A DNA stretch of 64,000 bases from Bacteroidota bacterium (GTDB lineage: Bacteria; Bacteroidota; Bacteroidia; Chitinophagales; LD1), in contig JAFDYQ010000005.1 in the NCBI GenBank assembly GCA_018267365.1, positions 1 to 64,000 on the forward strand, in the 5' to 3' direction. The notes beneath the pieces were generated by a model that had not been told where the DNA came from, searched no databases, and worked only from the letters and a program-made list of their open reading frames with translations. Numbering within the stretch: position 1 is the stretch's first letter; every line of letters starts with the position of its first letter. The translations under genes and the position numbers were made by a program. Of this stretch, positions 1,840 to 42,317 are shown piece by piece.

Positions 1840-3887
1840 AATACGTGCTATTTTTATTCATTCTGCTTACGAATACCTCCGATGCTCAAGCTGTCCGCGC
1901 TAATAAGAACAACGGAATTAATGTGTTCGGAAACAATTCTAATAGTGTTGTTATCAATTATTCTAATGGCACAGTTATCAATATCCCTAACAACTCTGTT
2001 ATCAACTATCCTTATACAACCGATGATAGGCCTAAACAAACTAATACAGGTGATCACAACCTAAATGTAAATGATAACAGAGGCGGTACCATAAATTATT
2101 TAAGTGGACCGCAAGTTCAAACTCCTACCCATGTCCTTAAAATTAGAACCAACACTAAAAGCTATATTTATGTGGATGGGAGGCTTCGTGATAGCGTTAC
2201 GGTAGAAGCTCCGGCTATTATTGAACTTAAATCTGCTGGAATATATGCACTGAGGCTGGTAAGCGCATATTATAGTGACTGGATTATTGAACAGGATTAC
2301 CGTGTTGAAAAAACAGATATTGGCACTTCAACTTATGCATTTTTGAATTTCAAGATATCCCCTTATTTACATCCTGTACATAAAGTCGACAAGGGTAAAT
2401 ATGCCTATTTCAACATCTACACCGGAGAACTTGTGACATTGTTTAAATATGAAATAGCGAGCGAATTCAACGAAGGAGTTGCTACAGTGGGACTTGACGG
2501 AAAACTCGGTGCACTAGATGATTATGGTATGGAAAGAATTCCATTGACTTATGACCCATCAACAAAATTCAACTTTCGAAATGGTTATTCTGAGGCAATT
2601 AAAAATGGCAAGTACGGACTCATTGATGAAAATGGAAAGGCAACCGTTCCATTTATTTATGATTTTCTTTCATATTCTGGCGACAAATATGTGAGAGCAG
2701 TAATGAAAAATACATGGGGATATGTCGACACATTGAACAATGTTATTATACCATTTAAATACACATACGTCTCAGAAATTGACGGTAATTGGATTAAGGC
2801 AGCAACAGGTGGTTGGACATTCATGATGTTTAACACAGAAGCGAACGACGAATCGAAAGTTTATAACGCCAAATGGGGTATTATTGATCTTCAAGGTAAC
2901 GTGGTTCTGCCAGTTGCATATAGAGATGTCCTAACTAAAGCAACAGATGCACCTTCAATGCCATTACGGATGCAGAATGCAAGAATGGTTCCTGTCCAAA
3001 AGGAGTTGGATTGGAATTTCATATACTTAGGCAACTGGAAGGAAAAAAGCTTTGGCCCCTTCGCGGATGTCGATAATATTAGTAAAGACATGCTCAGAGT
3101 TGGAGTGATAGATCATAAGAATTGTAGGAAAAATAAAAAATCACCAGACGATTGCGAGAAGTATGGCTGCTTATCAAATTTCGGGCGTCAAATTTTACCT
3201 ATAAAATACGATAACATTTTTTGTTCTGAAAACATTCTTTGGATATCCAAAAATGACAGTATAGGCTTTTATAATGTTGACTCTAATCGTCAAATAACTG
3301 ACTTGATATATGAGTTTGGATATAGCGGCAAAACGAGTATGACTGAAGCATTTATTGGTGGCTTGGCAAAAGTTTATAAGAATGGATACAGCGGCTTCAT
3401 CAATAAAAGAGGTAAAGAAATAATCCCTGTTGAAAACAAGCCTGGAGGGTGCCATAGTGCCAAACAGTTCGGCAACTTTCATATTGTTGGAGTAAATGAC
3501 AAATTTGGAATTATTAGGGATGATGGGACTTGGGTGACTACGATGGACTATGATGAAATATTATTGGCAAGCAATGACAATGGCGCAAAGTACGAGAATG
3601 TGATTGCAATTTTAATCAGGAATGGTAAGTACAGGTATATAACAGCAACTGGGAAAATGTTGAATAATAAAGATTACGATTACGCGGGAGGATTTTGGGG
3701 GCACACAGGTATAGCAATTGTCGGGAAAGAAAATAAGTATGGTCTTATAAATATTAAAGGCTCCCAAATAGTACCTTTTATTTACGATTACATTAAAGTC
3801 ATTTCAAAAGATTTTATTGAAGCGCATGTCAATGACGAAGTAATGTATATCAACGACAGTGGACGTTGCTTATACGGATGTCATTAA
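1836..3887 (+). CDS. Secreted WG-repeat protein
   Basis: A 683-residue protein with a signal peptide (about residues 1-20, MKYVLFLFILLTNTSDAQA). The next roughly 45 residues are Asn/Val/Ile-rich, with NNSNSVVINY-like short repeats. The shared NLNVNDNR segment follows at about 68-88, then a PEGA-like beta domain (about 100-165, with SYIYVDGRL). From about 185 to the end run WG/KWG-type repeats, for example GKYGLIDENGK, NTWGYVDTLNN, AKWGIIDLQGN and NKYGLINIKG. WG repeats form beta-propeller-like arrays and are common in secreted or surface proteins of unknown role. It is the last gene of the coupled operon 962-3887. The operon is more AT-rich than the transfer genes beside it, so it is probably cargo of the element. 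Confidence 0.85.
   Translation: MKYVLFLFILLTNTSDAQAVRANKNNGINVFGNNSNSVVINYSNGTVINIPNNSVINYPYTTDDRPKQTNTGDHNLNVNDNRGGTINYLSGPQVQTPTHVLKIRTNTKSYIYVDGRLRDSVTVEAPAIIELKSAGIYALRLVSAYYSDWIIEQDYRVEKTDIGTSTYAFLNFKISPYLHPVHKVDKGKYAYFNIYTGELVTLFKYEIASEFNEGVATVGLDGKLGALDDYGMERIPLTYDPSTKFNFRNGYSEAIKNGKYGLIDENGKATVPFIYDFLSYSGDKYVRAVMKNTWGYVDTLNNVIIPFKYTYVSEIDGNWIKAATGGWTFMMFNTEANDESKVYNAKWGIIDLQGNVVLPVAYRDVLTKATDAPSMPLRMQNARMVPVQKELDWNFIYLGNWKEKSFGPFADVDNISKDMLRVGVIDHKNCRKNKKSPDDCEKYGCLSNFGRQILPIKYDNIFCSENILWISKNDSIGFYNVDSNRQITDLIYEFGYSGKTSMTEAFIGGLAKVYKNGYSGFINKRGKEIIPVENKPGGCHSAKQFGNFHIVGVNDKFGIIRDDGTWVTTMDYDEILLASNDNGAKYENVIAILIRNGKYRYITATGKMLNNKDYDYAGGFWGHTGIAIVGKENKYGLINIKGSQIVPFIYDYIKVISKDFIEAHVNDEVMYINDSGRCLYGCH
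2037..2099 (+). repeat. NLNVNDNR segment, copy 2
   Basis: Second copy of the 21-residue segment, in the N-terminal region of the WG-repeat protein. It lies after the signal peptide and the Asn-rich repeats and before the PEGA-like domain. See the copy at 1753-1815. Confidence 0.8.
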
Positions 3888-20164: not shown

Positions 20165-20824
20165 ATGAGCATCATAGTCGCCCCATCTGTTTTGTCTGCT
20201 GATTTTGCCCATCTGGGCAGGGATATAGATATGCTGAATAGCAGCGAGGCGGAGTGGATACACATAGATGTAATGGACGGCTCCTTTGTGCCCAATATCT
20301 CTTTTGGTTTTCCCATCCTTCAGGCTATCCGCAAAAGGACTAAAAAATATTGCGATGTGCATCTGATGATCGTACAGCCTGAGCGGTATATCAAACAGTT
20401 TAAAGATGCCGGTGCGGATAGCCTGACCATACATCTGGAGGGCAATGTACACCTGGACTCGGTGATCCGTGAGATCAAAGCACACGGCCTCTCTGCAGGC
20501 GTAGCGATTAATCCTGCTACACCGGTGAGTGAGCTGAAAGAAGTGATCAGCCTGATAGATGTGGTGCTGGTGATGAGCGTCAATCCGGGATTTGGCGGCC
20601 AGAAATTCATACCCAATGCGCTGAATAAAGTACGCGAGACTCGTGACCTGATAGGCCAGTCAGGCTCCAAGACTAAAATAGAGGTAGATGGCGGTGTGGG
20701 GCTGGACAATGCTAAAAACCTGATAGAAGCCGGTGCTGATGTACTGGTAGCCGGCAATGCAGTCTTCGGCGCCAGCGACCCGGTAAAGACTATTTTTGAT
20801 ATAAAGCATGCCGCCTCGAAATAA
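20165..20824 (+). CDS. rpe: Ribulose-phosphate 3-epimerase
   Basis: A 219-residue TIM-barrel enzyme interconverting ribulose-5-P and xylulose-5-P. All signature residues are present: Ser in PSVLSADF, HIDVMDG, DVHLMI, MSVNPGFGGQ and EVDGGV. It is the canonical pentose-phosphate enzyme; a second, divergent copy fused to CBS domains lies at 41316-42317. A TonB receptor gene follows after 30 bases. Confidence 0.96.
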   Translation: MSIIVAPSVLSADFAHLGRDIDMLNSSEAEWIHIDVMDGSFVPNISFGFPILQAIRKRTKKYCDVHLMIVQPERYIKQFKDAGADSLTIHLEGNVHLDSVIREIKAHGLSAGVAINPATPVSELKEVISLIDVVLVMSVNPGFGGQKFIPNALNKVRETRDLIGQSGSKTKIEVDGGVGLDNAKNLIEAGADVLVAGNAVFGASDPVKTIFDIKHAASK

Positions 20825-39762: not shown

Positions 39763-40293
39763 TCACAGTGCGAGCAATAGCTGCTCGTATATACTGTGGT
39801 TGATAGCGTCAAAGGCCACGAAAGTTACTTTCTCAATACTCTTTTCTTGTTTCAGAAAATCGGAAACAGTGCTTAGTGCTATTGCAGCTGCCTTATCTTT
39901 AGGAAAATGATAAATACCTGTACTAATTCCAGGGAAGGCAATTGTCTTTACTTCATTCTCGACGGCCAGTCGCAAACTATTGTGATAAGCTCTTTGCAAA
40001 AGCGTCTCCTCCCCTTTGCCACCCCCATTCCAGACAGGGCCTACCGTATGTATCACGTATCTGGCAGGCAATCTGCCCGCTGTAGTGATCACTGCTTCCC
40101 CCACAGCGCAGCCACCCTGCCGGTTTCTGATCCTTATGCACTCCTCAAGTATTTCTTTGCCACCGGCGCGGTGAATAGCTCCATCCACACCACCACCTCC
40201 TAGCAGGGAAGTATTGGCAGCATTGACTATAGCATCTGCAGATACTTTAGTGATGTCACCATGCAGGAGTACTATCTTGTCTTTGTAGTTCAT
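39763..40293 (-). CDS. Macro-domain ADP-ribose hydrolase (O-acetyl-ADP-ribose deacetylase type)
   Basis: A 176-residue macro domain: [34 protein letters not shown] and [17 protein letters not shown]. MacroD/YmdB-type enzymes remove ADP-ribose from proteins or hydrolyse O-acetyl-ADP-ribose. It is three bases from the upstream DAHP synthase gene, so probably co-transcribed. Confidence 0.92.
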
Positions 40294-40295
40294 GG

Positions 40296-41294
40296 TTATA
40301 CGATCTTCCTGCCCACAGCATTTGCCACTGCATCCATACTCTTGTACAGCGCGCGAAACTGCTCAAAGTTGAGCTGCTGGTCTGCGTCTGACTTGGCTAC
40401 TTTAGGATTAGGGTGCGTCTCTATAAGGAGGCCATCTATACCCATAGCGATGCAGGCGCGGGAGAGGTCTGCTACGCCGTAGGCATAGCCTATAGCATGG
40501 CTAGGATCAAGGATCACGGGCAGATTGGTATATTGCTTCAGCCAGGCCACACCGCAGAGGTCGAGGGTAAATCGCGTCTTGGTCTCAAAGGTGCGGATGC
40601 CGCGCTCACAGAGCATTACATCAGAGTTGCCGCTGCTGAGTACAAACTCTGCCGCCTGCACAAACTCCTGCAGCGTAGAGCCAAAGCCGCGCTTGATCAG
40701 CACTGCCTTTTTGCTCTTGCCGCACTTGCGTAAAATGCCTTGGTCGTACATGGCCTTGGCACCTATCTGCACGATATCGCTGTATTCTATTACCTCATCT
40801 ACGTGTGTACTATCGCGCACCTCTGTGATGATCTTGAGGCCATATTTGCTACGCATTTTGTCCAGCAGTTTCAGGCCTTCCAGACCCAGCCCTTGAAAAG
40901 TATAAGGTGAAGTCCGCGGTTTGTAAGCGCCTGCACGGAGCACCTTCACACCCAGCTCTACGCAGAGCTGCGAGGCCTGCTCTATCTGCTCCTCGCTCTC
41001 TACAGAGCATGGGCCGGTGATCACGGCGGTGTGATTTGTCTTGCCGCCTATGGCCACGGTGCCGAGGTCTATGGTACGGATGTCTCTGAGGTATTGCTTG
41101 CTGGCCAGCTGTATGTCTGAGTCAGTGGCGTAGGTAGCTTCAGCCACGTCTTTGAGTGCAGCATCTGCCTCCTTTACCTTGGAGGAGGTCACCAGTACGT
41201 ATTGCTTACCATTATGAAAGACGATGGCCTCATACTGGCGGCCTAGTTCTTCAGCTTTTTGCTGATCGATATTACTGTGAAGATGGATGATCAT
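40296..41294 (-). CDS. aroF: 3-deoxy-7-phosphoheptulonate (DAHP) synthase, type I-beta
   Basis: A 332-residue enzyme starting the shikimate pathway. Residues about 1-70 form the ferredoxin-like regulatory domain found in the I-beta subgroup. The barrel shows [41 protein letters not shown] and [12 protein letters not shown], including the metal-binding Cys/His/Glu/Asp set. It makes the chorismate precursor used by menF. Confidence 0.93.
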
Positions 41295-41315: not shown

Positions 41316-42317
41316 TCAGCCTCTCGTCAGGTTATTGAGCAGAACGGCACCGAGCAGTTTGCCCTCGCTGTCTACTACCGGCAAAAATAGTATAATGAAA
41401 TTTAGTTCGTTGATCATAGCCAGCATCTGGCCGAGGTCCGCATCACCGCTGATGCGTATGGGATCGGTATTGATCATTTCGCGCACGTCTACGCTCACGA
41501 GATTGTCCAGCTGGCGTATCAGGCCGCGGCGCAGATCAGCATTGCTCACTACGCCTTTGAGATTATTGTGCTCATCTACTATCAAGACAAAGCCTTTGCG
41601 GTGCGATTCAATAGTATGAAGAACGTTTTCAAAGCTAAGATCCTGCTCCTTTAGTACTGGTAGATGCTCTATCGGAGTCATGAAGTCTGATACCTGATAG
41701 CTTCCTACAGGGGGAGTTTTGTAGAAACTCAGCATACCAGATCCTATACTGAAGTGATTCATCAGGAAAGATCCCGATACAATAGAATCAACTCCCAGCA
41801 ATCTCAAAATATATCCCACCTCATCGTTTACTCCGCCATCTACCTGAATTTTCAGGTTAGGATATCTGTTTTTTATCTCTATGATGCGTTTGAAATTCTC
41901 CTTCTGAAAGCTCCCTCCACTGACCCCTGGCGTGGTACACATCAGCATCACATAATCATACCCCTCATCAGGGTCAATGATAGATATCGGCGTACTTGAC
42001 TCTATACCCGTACCGAATTTCGTACCACCTATCTGCAATATATCAATACCTCCAGGCCCAAGTGGTTCCCTTTGCCAAGTGACGTATTCTATCCCCAACT
42101 CTTCTATTTGCGCATTGTACTTCCAGGGGGAATCGGAAATGATATGTAAATCGATTGGGATATTTGTCAAACTACGTATAACCCTGATATCGTCAAAGAC
42201 GGACGGATCATCCCTACAGTCGATATGCAGCATATCCACACCATGCCCACTCAGTTGAGCTACTATTTCGGCTAACGGTTTTTCCCTCTGGGAATAAATG
42301 GAGGCAGATATTTTCAC
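41316..42317 (-). CDS. Ribulose-phosphate-epimerase-like barrel fused to a CBS pair
   Basis: A 333-residue protein starting at GTG 42317 (VKISASIYSQREKPL). Residues about 1-205 are an Rpe-type barrel: HIDCRDD in place of HIDVMDG, DLHII in place of DVHLM, MCTTPGVSGGSF in place of MSVNPGFGGQ, then QVDGGV. The catalytic His/Asp pair is kept, but two of the three conserved Met residues are changed. Residues about 210-333 are a CBS pair (VSDFMTPIEHLP, FVLIVDEHNNLKGVVSNADL, MINTDPIRISGD). GC is visibly lower in the barrel half than in the CBS half. The longer ATG frame would nearly reach the divergent gene's start. Substrate unknown, perhaps a surface-sugar intermediate. Confidence 0.8.
   Translation of the reverse strand: MKISASIYSQREKPLAEIVAQLSGHGVDMLHIDCRDDPSVFDDIRVIRSLTNIPIDLHIISDSPWKYNAQIEELGIEYVTWQREPLGPGGIDILQIGGTKFGTGIESSTPISIIDPDEGYDYVMLMCTTPGVSGGSFQKENFKRIIEIKNRYPNLKIQVDGGVNDEVGYILRLLGVDSIVSGSFLMNHFSIGSGMLSFYKTPPVGSYQVSDFMTPIEHLPVLKEQDLSFENVLHTIESHRKGFVLIVDEHNNLKGVVSNADLRRGLIRQLDNLVSVDVREMINTDPIRISGDADLGQMLAMINELNFIILFLPVVDSEGKLLGAVLLNNLTRG

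Follow-up and report, generated by a model that had tools for sequence, protein, structure and literature searches.

What does an Rpe-type barrel joined to a CBS pair make, when a canonical rpe is encoded as well and the next gene resembles a DAHP synthase? The question is raised by a window of 64,000 nucleotides from a Bacteroidota bacterium (contig JAFDYQ010000005.1), whose relevant features are listed in Table 1. A preliminary description of this window had reported the two domains in a single gene and the separate rpe, and had named the sugar-phosphate isomerase KdsD as the relevant comparison. All three points were confirmed and the last one proved central. Searches of the open literature for a fusion of Rpe and CBS domains, for another enzyme giving arabinose 5-phosphate or for a route to Kdo without KdsA returned nothing on point.

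Table 1. Features of the window discussed in the text
Feature	Position	Strand	Remarks
Rpe-barrel and CBS-pair fusion gene	41316..42317	minus	333 aa, GTG start at 42317
Rpe-type (beta/alpha)8 barrel, residues 2-186	41760..42314	minus	Pfam, AlphaFold2, Foldseek
CBS pair, residues 208-331	41325..41696	minus	Pfam, Foldseek; closest curated CBS family KpsF/KdsD
DAHP-synthase type I-beta-like partner, 'GAK[AS]MYD' clade	40296..41294	minus	332 aa, 21 nt downstream of the fusion
Macrodomain gene (O-acetyl-ADP-ribose deacetylase-like)	39763..40293	minus	2 nt past the synthase
Canonical rpe	20165..20824		TIGR01163, 275.7 bits

Domain structure and active site of the fusion

Residues 2-185 of the fusion belong to PF00834 (68.3 bits, gathering score 21.1) and the part C-terminal to the barrel matched the CBS family PF00571 (44.7 bits). 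The motif MKISAS is the common start point of the homologs, in agreement with the GTG start. In the AlphaFold2 model (mean pLDDT 88) the best Foldseek matches of the barrel half were all Rpe structures. The best match of the CBS half among solved CBS structures was 4o9k, the CBS pair of a putative D-arabinose-5-phosphate isomerase from Methylococcus capsulatus, with a ligand that we take to be CMP-Kdo. The fusion shares its C-terminal CBS pair with KdsD/KpsF/GutQ (SIS plus two CBS), although the catalytic domain of those proteins is SIS and not homologous to the barrel; TIGR00393 (KdsD/KpsF, SIS plus CBS pair) matched the CBS part only (39.3 bits versus a cut-off of 203.7).

With Rpe and AlsE the fusion shares the fold, the phosphate site and the His/Asp/His/Asp metal and acid-base set, but it carries the additional CBS pair and scores far under the family cut-offs (63.8 versus 212.6 bits for the Rpe equivalog TIGR01163; 39 versus 271 bits for AlsE). 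The residues His31, Asp33, His58 and Asp160 were kept in 79/79 fusion homologs, as was the third Met of Rpe (Met126). The other two Met positions differ from Rpe: position 60 is Ile in all 79 homologs, and position 35 is Arg in the fusion of the window and variable across the family, mostly Asn. A Cys directly follows the first active-site Asp in 78 of the homologs, and the loop after strand 2 (GSFVPNISFGF in Rpe) is six residues shorter. The metal and acid-base machinery thus appears to be retained, with a sugar-pocket lining altered in a conserved fashion. This agrees with the earlier reading of the active site, in which the catalytic His/Asp residues were kept and two of the three Met changed. 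The new substrate suggested there likewise remains probable, as the ordinary Rpe active site was not found in the homologs.

The partner synthase

The neighboring synthase exceeds the NCBI cut-offs for type I-beta DAHP synthases (NF006421, 366.3 versus 335 bits; TIGR01361, 314.5 versus 267.75 bits), whose motif KPRTS is kept in its clade. With the KdsA profile TIGR01362 it reached 124.9 bits versus a cut-off of 314, and it lacks the KdsA motifs KANR and PAFLCRQ. The clade differs from ordinary I-beta enzymes in having GAK[AS]MYD in place of GARN[SA]QN, and in other fixed changes; KRGFG, a stretch of 15 residues and DPSHAxG are also fixed within it. All fusion-linked synthases fell into this one clade, which also holds unlinked copies from two fusion carriers (G058 and G361) and copies from G007, G010 and G020.

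The genome of the window and five Gammaproteobacteria encode a second, different DAHP synthase, and therefore the partner clade is not needed for aromatics there. In nine fusion carriers (G032, G044, G053, G058, G356, G361, G366, G371 and G014) the partner is the sole PF00793 protein; it may be bifunctional, serving also as DAHP synthase, in these nine genomes unless a class II DAHP synthase is present.

Gene neighborhood

Relatives were searched in the GTDB species collection, which gave 384 related stretches of which the best 80 were kept. In 74 of these 80 loci the fusion was followed by a synthase from the same cluster, and 55 had a KdsC-type phosphatase; the joints of the fusion-synthase-KdsC operon were mostly 4-bp overlaps. 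In Thiohalophilus thiocyanatoxydans DSM 16326, about 4 kb of contig 3 carry, in succession on one strand, matches to the CBS tail, the synthase, KdsC and KdsB. In gammaproteobacterial loci (L146) the trio is placed between yrbG and kdsB-kdsC-lptC-lptA-lptB-rpoN. In E. coli, kdsD itself sits in the yrbG-lptB locus (PMC10448790), and the fusion thus shares the operon surroundings of KdsD in Gammaproteobacteria. Gammaproteobacterial loci encode two KdsC-type phosphatases, which belong to the fusion operon and the lpt operon (3185-3754 and 6705-7238 in L146). A KdsC-type phosphatase was also present in the genome of the window; within the family of the window, none was found over the cut-off in G007, G008, G009, G010, G011, G014, G016 and G021.

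Distribution relative to KdsA, KdsD, KdsB and WaaA

Lipopolysaccharide is anchored in the outer membrane through the sugar Kdo. Nearly all Gram-negative bacteria synthesize Kdo, and the pathway is a drug target. Its textbook opening enzymes are KdsD, which interconverts ribulose 5-phosphate and arabinose 5-phosphate, and KdsA. The occurrence of KdsA (TIGR01362) and of SIS-domain KdsD (TIGR00393) was compared with that of the fusion in 62 genomes (set 1, 40 fusion-positive and 22 fusion-negative) and in a second, independent sample made up of 57 relatives of Brumimicrobium oceani (set 2, 35 fusion-positive and 22 fusion-negative). Several of the KdsD proteins counted in the non-carriers consist of SIS alone and adjoin kdsA; they score below the TIGR00393 cut-off, which was chosen for SIS plus CBS.

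In set 1, the profile search detected KdsA in 0/40 and SIS-domain KdsD in 0/40 fusion carriers, and in 22/22 and 20/22 fusion-negative genomes, respectively. In set 2, neither protein was detected over the cut-off in any of the 35 carriers (one weak SIS match of 92 bits occurred in G609), and KdsA was present in 19/22 and KdsD in 18/22 of the others. Both proteins were thus missing from 75/75 carriers, and the fusion-free relatives had KdsA in 41/44 and KdsD in 38/44 cases. The Fisher p-values for the exclusion of KdsA (2.9e-17 in set 1, 2.4e-12 in set 2 and 9e-29 combined) overstate independence because the genomes are related. The same pattern recurs in Gammaproteobacteria. kdsA is expected to occur together with kdsD or gutQ (PMC3402364); judged by these profiles, the fusion carriers lack kdsA and kdsD jointly and appear to have the fusion and synthase pair in their place.

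The later steps of the pathway were kept. KdsB was found over the cut-off in 55/62 genomes of set 1, with fragments or weaker matches in the rest, and WaaA in 58/62, and both were retained in almost all fusion carriers of this set. When E. coli kdsB was searched for by distant DNA similarity, nothing matched.

G020, a fusion-negative genome of the same family as the window, displays the arrangement ABC transporter - synthase - PurM-like where its relatives have ABC - fusion - synthase - PurM-like, and it has a kdsD(SIS)-kdsA pair elsewhere in the genome. Its synthase nests among the fusion-linked ones. By gene order and phylogeny this genome seems to represent a natural replacement, in which the fusion is gone where kdsD-kdsA is present.

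KdsA occurs without the fusion and without a detectable KdsD in two genomes of one family (G047 and G060), which may draw arabinose 5-phosphate from yet another source.

Proposed function and alternative explanations

We propose that the fusion probably makes D-arabinose 5-phosphate and that its neighbor makes Kdo-8-phosphate, the two being a non-orthologous replacement of KdsD and KdsA. The genomic case for this replacement is strong; we infer from sequence data both reactions, the exact substrate and the CBS ligand. The replacement appears to be spread over many Bacteroidota and some Gammaproteobacteria.

Rpe epimerizes the carbon beside the carbonyl; the intermediate is a metal-bound enediolate that has one Asp on each of its two faces. 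In the fusion, the corresponding metal site and the two Asp acid/bases would convert a pentose 5-phosphate to D-arabinose 5-phosphate, for which two routes may be considered. The geometry-conserving route would be C2 epimerization of ribose 5-phosphate, with the same R-to-S inversion as in Rpe. The alpha-carbon chemistry of Rpe would then take place at the next carbon away from the phosphate; allulose-6-phosphate 3-epimerase (AlsE) already acts at that distance, on a hexulose phosphate. The loss of the C1 hydroxymethyl group of the substrate would fit the changed Met positions. The other route would be ketose-aldose isomerization of ribulose 5-phosphate, as by KdsD. We know of no Rpe-fold protein that makes arabinose 5-phosphate and of no enzyme performing ribose-5-phosphate 2-epimerization. 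The most specific version, in which a ribose-5-phosphate 2-epimerase feeds a Kdo-8-phosphate synthase that arose from DAHP synthase independently of KdsA and the two initial steps towards Kdo were reinvented together, is put forward tentatively, at somewhat less than even chances.

The partner, as a descendant of I-beta DAHP synthases, would condense D-arabinose 5-phosphate with PEP to Kdo-8-phosphate, the reaction of KdsA, and the KdsC-type phosphatase, canonical KdsB and WaaA would complete the pathway. The DAHP synthase of Pyrococcus furiosus accepts several pentose phosphates including arabinose 5-phosphate, which makes the step from DAHP synthase to Kdo-8-phosphate synthase plausible. A product of the pathway is the probable signal for the CBS pair; CMP-Kdo is the most plausible candidate and may act in feedback. 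The ligand control predicted for the CBS pair in the preliminary description is kept as likely, but ATP or AMP need not be the ligand, the nearest solved CBS pair being that of an arabinose-5-phosphate isomerase.

Several observations weigh on the replacement of KdsD and KdsA. The DAHP synthase scores and the KPRTS motif of the partner count against it, and its sugar substrate may accordingly be a tetrose. The nine carriers in which the partner is the sole PF00793 protein, and the fact that we know of no Rpe-fold precedent for the proposed product, count against it as well. The main unexplained point is that the GAK[AS]MYD synthase survives in the fusion-free G007, G010 and G020 (L150-L152), whose genomes also encode canonical KdsA and KdsD, and therefore has, or had, another use.

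The main rival, which we consider unlikely, is that the pair makes an analogue of Kdo, a 3-deoxy-ulosonic acid that would be activated and placed on lipid A instead of Kdo, with the barrel yielding another sugar phosphate or the synthase using erythrose 4-phosphate. The KPRTS motif and high DAHP synthase scores would suit such a product, as would the KdsC-type phosphatase within the operon, and G034 and G358 pair a divergent fusion with a divergent KdsB (about 103 bits), possibly for a different sugar. However, a different core sugar should leave its mark on KdsB as well as WaaA. WaaA is ordinary, and the KdsB of most carriers scores over the curated cut-off (up to about 310 bits in Gammaproteobacteria), while the matches below it include contig-edge fragments.

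It is much less probable still that the fusion is a second, CBS-regulated Rpe that feeds erythrose 4-phosphate to the adjoining DAHP synthase for aromatics. The barrel keeps all catalytic residues and curated models call the neighbor a DAHP synthase, but the fusion misses the equivalog cut-off by a wide margin, a canonical rpe is present as well, and the active-site and loop changes are fixed. This explanation also leaves the strict exclusion of KdsA and KdsD and the location in lipopolysaccharide operons unaccounted for, and an ordinary second Rpe was rejected on the profile scores and this exclusion.

If the replacement of KdsD and KdsA is correct, an unrelated second enzyme pair would fill the hole in the Kdo pathway of many Bacteroidota and some Gammaproteobacteria. 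The labels epimerase and DAHP synthase, which are widespread in annotations, would then need correction, and the Rpe fold would gain a new reaction.

Age and composition of the fusion gene

The fusion was present in 47/299 sampled genomes of the order of the window, and in an even phylum-wide sample (n=296) it occurred in the genome of the window and one other. The best 80 of the 384 relatives matched over 93-100% of the query except for a contig-edge fragment (L055). Barrel and CBS distances across the homologs were correlated (r = 0.76). These data indicate an old family, in which the fusion has been conserved in its entirety, and not a recent join.

In the window's copy the barrel has a GC content of 43.2% and the CBS half one of 48.4%, and the mean difference between the halves in the family is -1.5 +/- 2.2 points. 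The composition step of the preliminary description is real as a local 5-point difference, but was overstated as a step at the domain border: the GC-rich 60-nt stretches (63% and 57%) begin well within the CBS half, and a border step was rejected. The difference is a minor local quirk of one gene copy. The joining of an acquired barrel to a resident CBS module, as proposed earlier, has in its favor this GC difference of a single copy and is almost certainly wrong, because full-length homologs in hundreds of genomes share the domain order, the best 80 relatives match over nearly all of the protein, the halves diverge together and the GC step is not shared. Many close full-length homologs of uniform composition are what that description had named as evidence against its proposal, along with an ordinary Rpe active site, which these homologs do not have.

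In G013 (contig 36, 9650-10656) the fusion is read as two frames that overlap (residues 1-170 and 164-333); a frameshift or a sequencing error may be the cause. The fusions of G034, G358 and G377 are very divergent, with about 25% identity to that of the window.
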